DNA of 64,000 nt, from contig JAHHHL010000012.1 of the NCBI GenBank assembly GCA_019359375.1, forward strand, positions 62,001-126,000, in the 5' to 3' direction. The notes beneath the pieces are model-generated. The model worked only from the letters and a program-made list of their open reading frames with translations, had not been told where the DNA came from and did no database searches. Positions 10,255 through 17,071 of the stretch are shown here, in pieces (the first letter of the stretch is position 1; each line of letters begins with the position of its first letter). Both the position numbers and the translations under genes were made by a program. Origin of the DNA: Lyngbya sp. HA4199-MV5. GTDB taxonomy: Bacteria; Cyanobacteriota; Cyanobacteriia; Leptolyngbyales; Leptolyngbyaceae.

Positions 10255-10754
10255 GGCGCTACCTTCCGATCGCTTTCTTCCAGCGCGACCACCGCCTCTA
10301 CCCGCGCTCCTTTGCGGTTAAATTTGGGCGGTTGCGTAAACCGAAAGTAATATTGCGCGAAGTAGCTGATCTCAGTCGCGCTGATGTTGCTGACGGTGTT
10401 GAAAGGTGCGGGCGCAAGCGCACGGGTGCGAGAGCCTTCCTCCTGAAACTCAGTCGTGGTATCAACCACTAGCGTTTCAACATTTGCCACAGGCTCACGC
10501 GCCTGTCTACGCTTCTCCTGCCGACGATACAGCCCGTCTAAAAGCTTCCATTCGTCCCACTCCAGAAAGGCACTGAAAACCAGGATGTGGGGCGCTTCGT
10601 AAACCCGACCGTACCCGACAAAGTTGCCATACGCCGATCGCTGGCTGGCTGGCTGCTCAACAATCAGGCGTGGAAACGCATCGCCTGCAAACTGATAGTC
10701 GTAGATGGTTAGGCTTAAGTCGCCTAGCGTGAAGCTGATGTATTGATTACTCAT
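10251..10754 (-). CDS. distal tail protein candidate
   Basis: 167 aa, immediately after the tape measure and coupled to it by a 4-base overlap. Small proteins at this place normally cap the tail tube and link it to the hub. The sequence (YISFTLGDLSLTIYDY, then VFSAFLEWDEWKLLDGLYRRQ) is compatible but not diagnostic; the call rests mostly on gene order. Confidence 0.55.
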   Translation of the reverse strand: MSNQYISFTLGDLSLTIYDYQFAGDAFPRLIVEQPASQRSAYGNFVGYGRVYEAPHILVFSAFLEWDEWKLLDGLYRRQEKRRQAREPVANVETLVVDTTTEFQEEGSRTRALAPAPFNTVSNISATEISYFAQYYFRFTQPPKFNRKGARVEAVVALEESDRKVAP

Positions 10755-13700
10755 AGTCCTGCCTGTCCCACCAGGCTCTTGCTGGCATCTGCCAAGATCT
10801 TGGAGGCATCGGCGACGGGGTTTGCCGTGATCGCCGTGACGTTAGGGCGGTTCATCGAGTTAGCGAGGCGTTCTCCAAGACGGTCGATCGCGCTACTCAA
10901 CGTACTGCTCAACTGCTGCAAACCGCCACCCATACCTTGCCCTGCCGCTTCCTGTACAGGGTTCCCGGTGGGGATGCCGTTGGGTGCGGTAGCAGCCACA
11001 AACCCATTGCCGCCAAAGGTTTGACCGGCGTTGTACGTCACGCCTGTAAAACCGCCACCTGCGGCTCCACCGTTGGGGTCAATACCACCAATAACTTTCA
11101 CTTTGGCGGCATCTGCCGTCTCTGCCAGCTCTCTGGCACGTCCCCTACCCGCCGCCGCGTTCTGCTCGGACTGTGCTCGTTCCGCTGCCGCCTGCTTGAT
11201 GTCTAGCGCTCCTAAACCTAGCTGCCCTACCTCTCTCTGAGTGGCGGCGTTTGCCTGAGCATTACCAATCTGAGCGCCCGTGATGGCAACGTTTTGAGAT
11301 GCCAGTGCAACCCCTTGTTGAGCATTGGCAATCTCATTGGCATCGCCCGTTTTGAGCGCTTTGAGTAGGGCTGACTTCTGCTCATTCTCGGCAATCCGAG
11401 CGCTCATATTCGCCCGTTGTGCCTCCAATACGTTATTGCGGGCAGTCACTTCAGCCTGCCGCAGCTTTAGTTTTTCGGTCTCTCGTTCGGCATCATTCTG
11501 CTTTTGCAGTGCTCTCAGCTTTTCGCGATCGGCAGCAGCTTCGGCGGACTGTTTGATCTGCACCAGCTTGACTAGATCGGCATTGTTGACCTTACCGCTA
11601 ATGCTTAGCCCAGCAAGTTGCCCAACCTGTGCTTGTAGCACCTGCCGTTGATTGGTCCCCAAGTCTTTACTCTGGAGTTTTTTGAAAGAGTCAACTGCTT
11701 CCGAGGCGCGATCGACCGCAGCCTTCAACTGCTGCTGACGCGCCTCTGACACCGCAGCGCTCACCTTTGCTTGAGCCTCTACCAGTTGGCTTTCGCGTTG
11801 AATGCTGCCTGCCAAGAGGTCATTGCTGGCTTTCTGCTGGTCAATCCCTGCATTAGCGGCGGTTAGCTGCCGTTTCTGGGCGTCGGCAACGTTCTGAATC
11901 CCCCGCAAAACTCGTTGTGTTTCCAGGTCTTGAATTTTGGCTCGCTCAGCATCTTGCTTTTGCAGGTTTTCGGTGATCTGGTTTTCGGCTTCCCGCGACC
12001 CGATGACTTTATCTTGCTGTAGCTTTTTAATCTCTTGCAGGTCAATTTGAGCTTGTGCTAAACGCTTCTGCGCGGCTTCGGCTTCGATCCTTTGGATCTC
12101 AGCCTGCCCACCTTCGCCAACGACACCATCGCCTGATAGCTGCGTTTGACGTGCAGAAAACGTTTGAGCCGCTGTGGCTCGCTCGATCGCAGCGTTAGCG
12201 ACTTTACTACGCTGCTCAAAATCAGCTTGCTCGCGTTGGCGACGGATGCCCAGCAGTTTGACACGTTCATTGTCGAGGGCTTGCTCGATCGCCAGCTCTT
12301 TTTCAGCAGCTTCACGGGCATCTAAAACGCCCGCTGCCCGCTGTTGCTTCGTGGCGGCTAATTCTTTTTGCTTCTGAGCAATGGTGTCGGTTGCCGTCCG
12401 CTCCTCAATCTGGCTCGTTTCAACGGTGCCACTCGCACTCGATAGCCGCGAGGCATTGGCGCGTCTAGCAATTGCCGCTTCTGCCTGTTTATTCTGGAAT
12501 TCAAACTGTTTGAGCGTTTCCCGATTGGCAGCATCACGCGCCTTGATCTGGTTGTCCAGGTCGGACTTCTCCGCACTGGCAAGTTTTTTCTGAAGCTCCG
12601 ATCGCTTGGTTGCTGCTTCCTTAGCCCCGATTTGCCCCGTTTTCTCAGCGGCATCAATCTGCGCGATCGACTCCTCAATCGCTTTCACCTTGCCCTGGCT
12701 CTCTTTTGCCTGAATTTGGGCGATCGCGGCTTCAGTCTCCTGAGCGGTTTTAGTGCGGGAAAGTTGGGCTTTTTTGGCAAGGGCGATTTCGCGATCGGCT
12801 GACTCGGAGAGCTTATTCTCCTTCAGCGTTAAATCACGGCTGAAATCTTGAATGTCTTTGAGCTGCCCCGATGCCGTTTTTTCAGAGGTATCGACACCTG
12901 CTCCCTTACTGCTACTGCCTTCACTTGTCGCAAGACTCTTGCTGTCAACCTTGAGATCAGCCTTTGCCTCTGCTGCTTTTCTGACCGCTCGTTCTTGAAA
13001 GGTTTCCTCTTCTGGCGCACCTGCATCACGCTTAGCCGCTGCCGCTTTTTGCACTGCCGCCGCCTGAAAATCTGCCTTGGCAGCATCTTCGTCAGGTTTC
13101 GCTAATGTCCGTTTGCGAACTTCGTCTAGCTGCTTTTGGGTCTCCTCAAACCGGATTTTCTCAATTTCTTGTGGCTTGATCGAGCCAAAGGTAAGGGGTA
13201 CCCCACCGATATCGGTGGTTAAGCTTTGCCGTCGCACTCGCGCCTGCGTCCGTTTTTCCGCAGCATCAGCATCGGCTTTGGTGCCCCCCGCACCCTGAAT
13301 TGCCTTACTCGCGCCTTCTTTGTCGCCAGCATCAGGATTGAGCAACCCTTTCAGCCGTTGAGCGCCTTCGCCCAGCTTGTCTACAACCTTGCCTGCAACT
13401 CCAACCGCCTCATTCAGCAGTTTGACAAACTCCACCGTGCCCGACACCAGATCGGCGATCGCGCGTGGGTTCTCCTTCAGATACTCCGTGAGCGATCGCG
13501 CACCGCTGGCAACGTCATCTGCCAACACCTTGCCTGCTTCACCCAACGCCAGCGCTAACTCTTTCGCCAGATCAGGATCTTGTTCCAGAGAAAGCTTAAA
13601 GCCTTCGGCACTGCCCTTCAGCCCATCCAGCAACCCACTGGATTTAAGGATTTCATTGGCAGTATCGGTGCCTAACTTGGCTAAGCCCTCAAAGGCAGGC

Positions 13701-14950
13701 GCGATCGCCTCACCCAGGTTGAGCTTGAGCGTGGCAACCGACCCTTCTAAAAGCTTGAGTTGCCCTGGTAGCCCGGTAAGTAGTTTCTTTGCCGCTTCAC
13801 CCGCTGCATTATCTTGCGATGCATTATTAATTGTCTTGAACGTGCTGTCGATCTTTTCCTGAGAGGTTGACAACAGCGCTAAAAGCGGTGCTGCTCCACC
13901 ATCGCCAAAAATGGCTTTGACTAGAGACGCTTGCCGTTGTTGGGTTAGACCAGACAAGGATTTACGAAGCTCTGGAATAAGCGCTTCCAGGCTTCGCATT
14001 TTACCGCTGGCGTCAAAAACACTCACCCCAAGCTGCTCTATGGCATTCTTTGCCTCGGCGCTGGTCGGTGCCGCCAAGCTGCTAATGATGGTTTTGACAC
14101 CTGTTCCGGCTGCTTCCATCTGGAAACCTGCCGATCGCAGCAAACCAAACGTGGCTGCTAACGTTTCAAAGCTCTGGTTGTTTGCCTTCGCCACACCACC
14201 AGCTGATGAGATGGCTTGCAGCAAATCCTGCGCATCCGCCGCTGTCGCGTTACTGGTGGCGGCGACAACATCAGCCGTTTTCTTGGTGTTGGTGCCAAAG
14301 ACGTTAAATGCTGCCCCTGCCACCTCTGCCGCTTTGCCCAAGTCGGTCAGTCCAGAGGCTTCAGACAGCCTCACCACGCCTTCAACCTGCTCTTTAGTAT
14401 CTTTGGCACTAAAGCCAAGCTTGGCAAGCTGTACTGCCGCCTCACCCACCTGTACAGGGGTTTTAGAAGTCTCAATGCCTAAACGCTTGGCTTCGTCAGC
14501 CAGGGCTTTGGTTTCTTCCTTCGTGGCGTTGGCAACCGCGCCAAAGGTGGTGAGCTTGTCCTGAAAGGCAATGAACGTATCCAAGCCTTCTTTGACGGTG
14601 CCCGTAACGGCTCCTACAGCTCCTGCTACCGTGCCTTGAATGCTGTTGGCAAGGTTGATGCCAATGCCTTGCCCAATGCCTCTGCCAACTTCACCGAGCG
14701 CTTGCTTGGCAAAGTCACCCAGTTCTTTCAGTTTCTGTTTCGCAAGGCTGGTATCGGCATCGATCGGTGTCTTTACTCCACGCCCCGCCTGTTTTGCTAG
14801 CCCATCCAGTTCGCCTTTTGCCTTAGCTGTATCGGCTCCAACCTTAAGATTCGCGTCTTTGCCAGCGATCTGCTGTTGAGTCGCTGCAACCTGGGCAGGA
14901 ATGTCTTTGGTATTTAAGACCGCCTTAAATTCTACTGAGCCTATTTCCAC
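10751..14950 (-). CDS. tail tape measure protein
   Basis: 1399 aa with a GTG start. Residues about 120-420 match the TP901-type tape measure domain (EAVQLAKLGFS, AAEVAGAAFNVFG, AISSAGGVAKANNQSFE, GTGVKTIISSLAAPT, LVKAIFGDGG). Residues about 600-1250 are a very long, Gln/Lys/Glu/Ala-rich coiled coil, as expected for a protein that spans the tail lumen. By the usual rule of about 0.15 nm per residue, the tail would be roughly 200 nm long, which indicates a siphovirus. It follows the chaperone genes in standard order. The C-terminus is Gly- and Asn-rich. Confidence 0.93.
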   Translation of the reverse strand: MEIGSVEFKAVLNTKDIPAQVAATQQQIAGKDANLKVGADTAKAKGELDGLAKQAGRGVKTPIDADTSLAKQKLKELGDFAKQALGEVGRGIGQGIGINLANSIQGTVAGAVGAVTGTVKEGLDTFIAFQDKLTTFGAVANATKEETKALADEAKRLGIETSKTPVQVGEAAVQLAKLGFSAKDTKEQVEGVVRLSEASGLTDLGKAAEVAGAAFNVFGTNTKKTADVVAATSNATAADAQDLLQAISSAGGVAKANNQSFETLAATFGLLRSAGFQMEAAGTGVKTIISSLAAPTSAEAKNAIEQLGVSVFDASGKMRSLEALIPELRKSLSGLTQQRQASLVKAIFGDGGAAPLLALLSTSQEKIDSTFKTINNASQDNAAGEAAKKLLTGLPGQLKLLEGSVATLKLNLGEAIAPAFEGLAKLGTDTANEILKSSGLLDGLKGSAEGFKLSLEQDPDLAKELALALGEAGKVLADDVASGARSLTEYLKENPRAIADLVSGTVEFVKLLNEAVGVAGKVVDKLGEGAQRLKGLLNPDAGDKEGASKAIQGAGGTKADADAAEKRTQARVRRQSLTTDIGGVPLTFGSIKPQEIEKIRFEETQKQLDEVRKRTLAKPDEDAAKADFQAAAVQKAAAAKRDAGAPEEETFQERAVRKAAEAKADLKVDSKSLATSEGSSSKGAGVDTSEKTASGQLKDIQDFSRDLTLKENKLSESADREIALAKKAQLSRTKTAQETEAAIAQIQAKESQGKVKAIEESIAQIDAAEKTGQIGAKEAATKRSELQKKLASAEKSDLDNQIKARDAANRETLKQFEFQNKQAEAAIARRANASRLSSASGTVETSQIEERTATDTIAQKQKELAATKQQRAAGVLDAREAAEKELAIEQALDNERVKLLGIRRQREQADFEQRSKVANAAIERATAAQTFSARQTQLSGDGVVGEGGQAEIQRIEAEAAQKRLAQAQIDLQEIKKLQQDKVIGSREAENQITENLQKQDAERAKIQDLETQRVLRGIQNVADAQKRQLTAANAGIDQQKASNDLLAGSIQRESQLVEAQAKVSAAVSEARQQQLKAAVDRASEAVDSFKKLQSKDLGTNQRQVLQAQVGQLAGLSISGKVNNADLVKLVQIKQSAEAAADREKLRALQKQNDAERETEKLKLRQAEVTARNNVLEAQRANMSARIAENEQKSALLKALKTGDANEIANAQQGVALASQNVAITGAQIGNAQANAATQREVGQLGLGALDIKQAAAERAQSEQNAAAGRGRARELAETADAAKVKVIGGIDPNGGAAGGGFTGVTYNAGQTFGGNGFVAATAPNGIPTGNPVQEAAGQGMGGGLQQLSSTLSSAIDRLGERLANSMNRPNVTAITANPVADASKILADASKSLVGQAGL

Positions 14951-14981: not shown

Positions 14982-15317
14982 CTACTCAGACGCAGCCGCC
15001 TCCAGCAAACGCCGATCGAGCCACTCCACTACCCATCCCGGCAGCTTGCCTTCATCCCATAGTCTGAGTGTCGTTCGCGCGGCTGCTACAGGCACCAATG
15101 CTTTAGCCTCGCGCTGGTAAAGCGCAAGGGCATAAGGATTCACAAACTCAGTCGCTTCGGTGGGGCGCTTGACCCCATTGCACCCCGCGATCGTGGCGGC
15201 TACTCCATGCAACGGAGTGGCGATACTATTCGCCTGCTGCAATTCACGCTCATTGAGATAGGCGATCGCCCCGCTAATGACCTTTACACCGCAACGGCTA
15301 AAGCTGTCGTCTCCAAA
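14982..15317 (-). CDS. tail assembly chaperone, frameshift extension (gpT-like)
   Basis: This frame is -1 relative to the upstream chaperone gene. It is open from the slippery heptamer at 15317-15323 through 111 codons. The only initiator for an independent gene would be a TTG at 15242, and the codons before it read as ordinary protein (FGDDSFSRCGVKVISGAIAY). It is therefore best read as the C-terminal part of a fusion, as in lambda gpG-T, giving about 287 aa in total. The fusion normally recruits tail tube subunits to the tape measure. Confidence 0.7.
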   Translation of the reverse strand, partial: FGDDSFSRCGVKVISGAIAYLNERELQQANSIATPLHGVAATIAGCNGVKRPTEATEFVNPYALALYQREAKALVPVAAARTTLRLWDEGKLPGWVVEWLDRRLLEAAASE

Positions 15318-15844
15318 TTTTTTGTTACTGGGGAAGTCGTAAGAGAGTCGCCAGAAGATTTCCGTCCAGAAGTCTTGAGGGGCTTTTTTGCGGTGGTAGC
15401 CTCTGTCTCTGTTTCCATTTCAGAAGTAATTGTGGCAGTTTGCCAATGGGTACGCTCGCCAATAAAGAAATTATAGAGATCGTCGATTTGCTGTGTGCCC
15501 AGTTGCATAGTCTTAGCAACCGTCCAAGCGGCATCATGCCTGAATAACAGGATGAGTGTCACCGCTGCTGCTTTAAGGCGGAACAGTGTCAGTTCTTCCC
15601 ATGCGACGGTACGAGTCGCGCTTTCTAAAAAGCACTGCCACGTAAATTCTTCGCCTTGAGTCAATTGATGAAGTTTGGGTAACTCAAAAAGCGACACGGT
15701 GATGGTTTTACCCGTGACTACCTCAGAGGGGAGCAAGTCAAACGGCAAAGCCGCCGCGATCGCGGGTAGTTCTGTTTTAAAGAACTCAAACAGTGCCTTA
15801 ATTTCCGTGACCATGCCCAACGGTTTTAGCTCTGTCTCACTCAT
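15284..15844 (-). CDS. tail assembly chaperone (gpG-like)
   Basis: 186 aa from the ATG at 15844 (MSETELKPLG), which overlaps the end of the preceding gene. Longer upstream starts would extend far into that gene. It lies between the tail tube and tape measure, where siphoviruses keep this chaperone. Near the C-terminus the codons ACA AAA AAT contain the heptamer A AAA AAT (15323-15317) in the correct phase for -1 slippage, 11 codons before the TAA. Most ribosomes would end here, a minority would make the longer form. Confidence 0.75.
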   Translation of the reverse strand: MSETELKPLGMVTEIKALFEFFKTELPAIAAALPFDLLPSEVVTGKTITVSLFELPKLHQLTQGEEFTWQCFLESATRTVAWEELTLFRLKAAAVTLILLFRHDAAWTVAKTMQLGTQQIDDLYNFFIGERTHWQTATITSEMETETEATTAKKPLKTSGRKSSGDSLTTSPVTKNLETTALAVAV

Positions 15845-16064
15845 ACACTCGCTCCAAAACAACGTTGTAATCAGGGTTGTATTTAATTTCAGGCACCTTG
15901 ACCAGGTAAAGCTCACCATCTCGATTTTCGGTCTGGATCAGTGCCACCCTTTGCCCCATCAGCCCAGGATCGCGCAATGCCACCACACCAGCGGTAATGG
16001 TTTCCGCCTCTACTTGGCAGTGACTACAGAAGATGCCGCGTGTCTGTAAGCCGCTGATCAGCAT
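15837..16064 (-). CDS. small protein with CxxC and DUF-like fold, tail region
   Basis: 75 aa, starts MLISGLQTRGIFC with a CSHC motif at about residues 13-16 that could bind metal. Coupled at both ends to the tail tube and chaperone genes. Family not recognised. Confidence 0.6.
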   Translation of the reverse strand: MLISGLQTRGIFCSHCQVEAETITAGVVALRDPGLMGQRVALIQTENRDGELYLVKVPEIKYNPDYNVVLERVYE

Positions 16065-17071
16065 CAGGGTGTCACTGGTACAGGTACAGCTTTAATCACG
16101 GCACCGCTGAAGCTAATTTCCAGGTCGCCAGAAATGGGCGCGTTTGCCTGCCCCGCTTGTTTGTTGCTGGTAACAACGCCAATACCAACAATGCTGTCAC
16201 CCGTGATAAAACTGGGGTTAGGTGCGGGTTCCAGCCGTTTGACATAGATAAATTTTTGCAAATCCGCTTGTTCTGCCGCAGTGCGAAAAGCTGCGTTGTA
16301 ATGCCACTTAATCCCAGGCAGGGTGATTTTGCGATCGATGGTAGTCGGTGTCTGCAACTGTGCTCCACCTGTGTTAAACGTCACGGTTTGCACCGTAGCA
16401 AACGTTTCATCCAGGGAAGCATCGGTGCGATCCCAGAGATACGTGGGGAATTCTGCGCCTGATCCAGCAGTGATTGCCTCATCCAGTGCTCTGACGGTCA
16501 GGGTAGTGGCTCCGATCGCGGCTGAAACCGTGACTTTTGCCGACTTCTCCACGTCGTTAGAGTCAGCAAAACAAAGATATTGCCCAGCATAAACGGGTCC
16601 CAACAAGGGCTCAAACAGGGTCACGCTAGTTGCACCTTTGGCAGTTGTGTTCGTTACCAGCGCTGTTGCTCCTAACGTCATGTTGGCAGGGGTAGCACCC
16701 GTTGATGCAGCAGTAAAAGTTTGTCCGCTCAGCAGTACGAACGCACCTGTTGTTGGCTTGCCTGCAAAAATGCCCGTAGTTGGCGTGTTGAGCTTGACGC
16801 TTGCCAGAAGTGCATTCCGAATGATGGCAACAGTGTCGCCAGCTCCAGCGGTATAAGAGCCAATGACCACACCGTTTACGGTAAGCGAGTACACCCCTGC
16901 TGCTGCTGTCGCTACAGTCACGGTTTGCTGATAGCCACCGTCAAGGTAAATGTTTTGATCGACGATCGCGCTGGCGGAGACACCTGGATCAAGCGCTGCC
17001 AGATAAATTTGTACTAGCTTGCCCAGCACCGTTTGATGGCTAATCTGAGCGCGATTGCGAGTTAAAGGCAT
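16064..17071 (-). CDS. major tail (tube) protein candidate
   Basis: 335 aa, Ala/Thr/Val-rich and beta-like, placed between the tail terminator and tail chaperone genes, the normal position of the tube subunit. The last third (RKITLPGIKWHYNAAF, TSNKQAGQANAPISGDLEISFSG) resembles tube-protein strands; the middle may be an inserted Ig-like or decoration domain. Identified by synteny and size rather than by a diagnostic motif. Confidence 0.65.
   Translation of the reverse strand: MPLTRNRAQISHQTVLGKLVQIYLAALDPGVSASAIVDQNIYLDGGYQQTVTVATAAAGVYSLTVNGVVIGSYTAGAGDTVAIIRNALLASVKLNTPTTGIFAGKPTTGAFVLLSGQTFTAASTGATPANMTLGATALVTNTTAKGATSVTLFEPLLGPVYAGQYLCFADSNDVEKSAKVTVSAAIGATTLTVRALDEAITAGSGAEFPTYLWDRTDASLDETFATVQTVTFNTGGAQLQTPTTIDRKITLPGIKWHYNAAFRTAAEQADLQKFIYVKRLEPAPNPSFITGDSIVGIGVVTSNKQAGQANAPISGDLEISFSGAVIKAVPVPVTP

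Follow-up and report, generated by a model that had tools for sequence, protein, structure and literature searches.

The question raised by this locus is where, within the overlap of two tail genes, the ribosome would leave one reading frame for the other. The window, by which we mean the whole 64,000-nucleotide stretch of DNA that was analyzed, carries on its reverse strand a zero-frame ORF of 186 aa for a putative tail assembly chaperone (G; 15284..15844, by ORF call, with its ATG at 15844), followed in the -1 frame by a second domain, T. The -1 frame opens at 15419 and runs to a stop at 14984-14982 on the same strand, and the overlap of G and T amounts to 136 nt (15419-15284). The preliminary description of the locus had proposed a programmed -1 frameshift at an A AAA AAT heptamer. 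As it stated, this heptamer lies in the G frame at 15323-15317 of the reverse strand, as the sequence and the ORF phase show, the -1 frame is open down to 14982, and the fusion product is 287 aa long. It had also taken the -1 frame to be open from A AAA AAT onward; the frame is indeed open through that heptamer, but it opens already at 15419, well upstream.

Two further in-frame candidates are present in the overlap. One, A AAT TTG at 15320, overlaps A AAA AAT. The other, A AAA AAG (15383..15389, reverse strand), sits 66 nt upstream of A AAA AAT and is absent from the preliminary description. A slip at either A AAA AAG or A AAA AAT gives a fusion of 287 aa, and product size alone would therefore hide a wrong choice of site. 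With the slip at A AAA AAG, GT would consist of 154 aa of G and 133 aa of T, the latter encoded together with its stop at 14982..15383 (reverse strand), a domain with similarity to relatives and modeled by AlphaFold2 with a pLDDT of 82.2. On the basis of the comparative sequence evidence presented below, the predicted slip site has to be moved the 66 nt upstream, to A AAA AAG.

The surroundings of the two frames would fit a tail gene cluster of the phage lambda type. Directly downstream of T lies the gene for a tape-measure protein of 1399 aa (10751..14950, reverse strand), which matches PF10145 (E 1.3e-40), TIGR01760 (E 3.7e-49) and tape measure in PHROGs. G is preceded by a 75-aa ORF (15837..16064, by ORF call) and this in turn by a 335-aa ORF (16064..17071; both reverse strand), which stands where a major tail (tube) protein gene would be expected, an assignment made by position only; neither of these ORFs has a family match in PHROGs or Pfam. 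As in lambda, G and T form a -1 overlap with a heptamer near the end of G and a tape-measure gene downstream. The equation with lambda gpG/gpGT made in the preliminary description is well supported, in that relatives share the -1 overlap and have a slippery site as well, and the tape-measure gene comes directly after T. The heptamer of lambda G/GT is G GGA AAG, and several of the window's relatives use G GGA AAN; the window, in contrast, has A AAA AAG, and its G is without detectable similarity to named chaperone families.

Indeed, G has no family match in Pfam, PHROGs or NCBIfam. As a query it returned nothing from phage genomes or genome contigs and only the identical gene from viral contigs, and the tape-measure protein as a query likewise returned only the identical viral contig. 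The AlphaFold2 model of G has a pLDDT of 68.8. A fold search of G against the PDB gave generic helical rows with no significant match; against BFVD there was no match at E 0.001, and 9 of the best 50 matches carried the name tail assembly chaperone, with E values from 1.1 to 6.6. The corresponding BFVD search with T yielded a single uncharacterised Caudovirales protein (E 0.02), and none of its relatives there had a name.

The window is part of a 158-kb contig of a 6.9-Mb genome that holds two photosystem reaction-centre genes, which identifies the host as a cyanobacterium. A 72-kb IMG/VR contig carries G, T and tape-measure genes identical to those of the window. The cyanophage setting suggested in the preliminary description is therefore right as to the host, but the record is a contig of the host genome rather than one of a free phage; the element is most likely a prophage in a cyanobacterium. 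The sequence GCGATCGC, present 84 times in the window, likewise points to a cyanobacterial host.

A profile of T found at least 24 places in at least 18 of 388 genomes of the class, a lower bound since up to 11 first-look candidates were scored per genome. All 24 places were inspected, and they comprise the window, one fragment of T (L093) and 22 intact relatives. Every one of the 22 needs the same -1 shift: T is overlapped by an ORF from upstream that is 143 codons long or more, whereas the open stretch in the alternative +1 frame spans no more than 6-82 codons. Alignment of G with the G proteins of six relatives gives 23-33% identity, and of six ORFs downstream of T that were tested in relatives, four matched tape-measure families and two gave no match. 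An in-frame XXXYYYZ heptamer precedes the T homology in 21 of the 22 intact relatives and is of the type A AAA AAG/A, G GGA AAA/C/G, C CCT TTG or C CCA AAA. In place of a strict heptamer, the last intact relative (L081) has GGGGGAA, a sequence reported from many phage frameshift genes (PMC10885494). Three IMG/VR contigs behave similarly, one with G GGA AAA (L096), one with G GGA AAC (L098) and one that repeats the locus of genome G196 (L097). Past the T start, the overlap is free of heptamers in all 22 intact relatives, and none has one at the position of A AAA AAT. In the nearest relatives, those in genomes G196 and G162, the G stop falls 30 nt past the upstream heptamer, and G has already ended before the equivalent of A AAA AAT is reached. 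The comparison of relatives for conservation of the heptamer, which the preliminary description had proposed as a check, thus bears out a conserved heptamer at the upstream site, but not the one that had been named.

The stretch between the two heptamers points in the same direction. The -1-frame peptide encoded there, APQDFWTEIFWRLSYDFPSNKK, holds the conserved first helix of T (PQDFWTEIFWRLSYD; 15336..15380, reverse strand), so the ribosome must be in the -1 frame before it arrives at A AAA AAT; a first slip at 15323 would yield T without helix 1. AlphaFold2 predicts a confident helix at T residues 2-16, wholly upstream of A AAA AAT. A helix-1 profile built from 17 relatives, free of the window, scores the -1 peptide at 24.1 bits versus -2.6 for the zero frame, and its best score on shuffled sequences was 9.5 among the 1666 listed of 2000. 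This profile left out the window, L093, L079 and L095, as well as L077, L092 and L089, in which the match begins after helix 1. In searches with the -1 product, the similarity of relatives starts at T residues 4-8 (E 4e-26 for G196 and 1.9e-20 for G162, both genomes of the same class), and a motif of the type W-x-x-[IL]-[FY]-W is common to most T members in the alignment. The overlap and its heptamer are thus accompanied by conserved -1 coding of T that begins just after the heptamer, in an arrangement that is itself conserved.

Codon usage, by comparison, gave no choice between A AAA AAG and A AAA AAT. Neither frame is favoured between the heptamers (0.04 vs -0.00 bits per codon), the zero frame is ahead just after A AAA AAT (0.58 vs -0.28, over 9-10 codons), and the -1 frame is clearly ahead past the G stop (0.39 vs -0.80).

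If both heptamers were used in tandem, two 287-aa isoforms of GT differing in 22 residues would result, one with the first T helix and the other with a linker-like stretch instead, and the ratio of active to inactive GT could be tuned. We regard this arrangement as unlikely. That A AAA AAT (15323-15317), or the overlapping A AAT TTG (15320), is the only or main site is very unlikely, despite the fact that both are in frame and lead to the same product length. A zero-frame reading between the heptamers is compatible with the codon usage, and a second strict heptamer in the overlap is somewhat unexpected, given that twelve late genes nearby in the window have a strict in-frame XXXYYYZ at 4 of their 4372 codon pairs. 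However, such a slip would give a product deprived of the conserved helix, and relatives have no heptamer at this position. The A run can also be accounted for otherwise: A AAA AAT is best read as the T codons for K-K-F (AAA AAA TTT in the -1 frame), in which the F is the same in every sequence of the T alignment, and the coding of K-K ahead of it would explain the run. As a slip site, A AAA AAT would be secondary at best. The slip site of the preliminary description thus finds no support, since the conserved -1-frame protein starts upstream of it. A GT peptide containing APQDFWTEIFWR would be the mark of a slip at the upstream A AAA AAG, and an experiment in which A AAA AAT alone is altered would hit the wrong place.

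The distribution of heptamers is consistent with this choice. Counted per codon position over 23 places, window included, heptamers number 26 among the 440 positions of the overlap that precede the T homology versus 5 of 4152 in the bodies of the G genes; with near-duplicates (L079 and L095) removed, the counts are 24/387 and 5/3719. The fragment of T, L093, was left out of these counts. Because related genes would be counted as independent, p-values would overstate the case, but the excess in the overlap is roughly 50-fold and stands despite this kinship. In E. coli, only two other heptamers rank with A AAA AAG as the strongest when combined with stimulators, and A AAA AAT is missing from the list of selected shift-prone, underrepresented motifs given in the same article (PMC4066793).

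With respect to stimulatory signals, a Shine-Dalgarno (SD)-like GAGG is located 10 nt upstream of A AAA AAG (15400..15403, reverse strand). Its predicted anti-SD pairing (dG -5.1) is matched in strength by 6.7% of the background positions of this gene. Over 20 sites, the sequence ahead of the slip site pairs more strongly with the anti-SD than other parts of the gene do (mean -5.2; Wilcoxon p 0.002, 19 sites), a tally from which the near-duplicates L079 and L095 and also L081, with no strict heptamer, were left out. In the window the SD-like element is a modest one, and 6 of the 20 sites lack it or do not rise above background. Pseudoknot-free folding found no stable RNA structure downstream of the slip site, with z values of +0.58 and +1.73 versus shuffles for 51 and 80 nt, and the downstream RNA has no match in Rfam. 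The cassette of E. coli dnaX is described as A AAA AAG with an upstream SD and a downstream hairpin (PMC3711429). The window has the same A AAA AAG and an SD-like GAGG, but no downstream hairpin was found in it, the gene is another one, and the shift would lengthen the protein whereas the dnaX shift shortens it. The HK97-like tail assembly chaperone frameshift genes reported by Antonov et al. are like the window in gene type, and in two of these chaperone genes frameshifting of 6% and 7% was measured (PMC3711429).

Production of T as a separate protein, from an internal start in the -1 frame that is reached through coupling or through its own ribosome binding site, would dispense with a frameshift altogether, and separate initiation at the TTG at 15242 had been named in the preliminary description as the observation that would speak against its reading. 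Start codons in the T frame are available from this TTG onward. In addition, phrog_34388, a family whose function is not named and which matches three of nine T domains although not that of the window, aligns with the T of one relative (L066 in genome G065; E 9.8e-13) from T residue 34 onward, as if some annotators start inside T. However, the first start codon in the T frame corresponds to T residue 48, beyond the conserved helix, so that 47 residues including the helix would be lost; its SD pairing is weak (dG -1.9), and the in-frame heptamers of 21 of the 22 relatives would be left unexplained. We thus consider a separate start highly improbable, and phrog_34388 is probably the annotated remainder of a frameshift-encoded T that was begun at an internal codon.

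Slippage of RNA polymerase on the A run, instead of a ribosomal shift, is similarly improbable. Four relatives (L080, L085, L086 and L088) have seven A at the site, but the run in the window consists of six A only, and transcriptional slippage is described for runs of more than seven A (PMC3711429). Sites of the types G GGA AAN and C CCT TTG, neither of them a homopolymer, are found in most of the other relatives. Finally, prophages often decay, but it is barely conceivable that the -1 step reflects a decayed gene or a sequencing error in a formerly single G-T frame, since the same -1 overlap is found in all 22 intact relatives, the downstream tape-measure gene is open over 1399 aa, and a viral contig carries the identical sequence.

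The reading that we favour, and hold to be very probable, is a lambda-type chaperone pair in which a minority -1 slip on A AAA AAG (15389-15383) would give the 287-aa GT. It is consistent with a -1 ORF that has no good start of its own, a conserved in-frame heptamer and a tape-measure gene downstream, as in lambda-type systems. Most ribosomes would keep the zero frame and produce G of 186 aa, and a minority would slip back by one base on A AAA AAG, perhaps aided by the GAGG that precedes it by 10 nt, and then read the -1 frame as far as 14982. In the model for lambda, low-level -1 frameshifting gives rise to gpGT, which binds the tape-measure protein through its G part and the tube protein through its T part (PMC5009743). 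By analogy, G may coat the tape-measure protein and T may recruit the tail tube protein; slippage, its rate and these protein roles are all what we infer for the window.

As judged from the conservation of sequence, the predicted frameshift is real and conserved; its kind is known, whereas the chaperone family is divergent and unnamed. This tail-chaperone family, which occurs in several cyanobacterial genomes and has no name in the family libraries searched, would thereby be added to the phages with G/GT frameshifting. The type of slip site varies within it (A AAA AAR, G GGA AAN, C CCT TTG, C CCA AAA and GGGGGAA), while the -1 overlap persists. In the open literature, as judged by titles and the openings of abstracts, we found no description of tail-chaperone frameshifting in cyanophages or cyanobacteria.

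Some further matches and loci were encountered in these searches. We discounted a match of T in the Synechococcus phages S-CRES1/2 (24.6% identity, E 0.4) because it begins before the annotated gene and because that gene does not adjoin a tape measure. The many weak T matches in small genomes of family f2 (E 0.002-0.01, within a 602-codon frame) were treated as unrelated. L093 (G065:C1:4863235-4863351) is a second, partial copy that covers the C-terminal part of T; it lies some 11 kb away from the intact copy and looks like a partial duplication of T in that genome. In genome G189 (L063:3826-4641), the tape-measure frame after T ends at 272 codons, yet tape-measure families match it; the gene may be broken, or the frame may change a second time. 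Finally, in five relatives (L088 and L094 in genome G258, L072, L075 and L076) a zero-frame stop comes directly or one codon after the heptamer, and such a stop might itself favour slippage.
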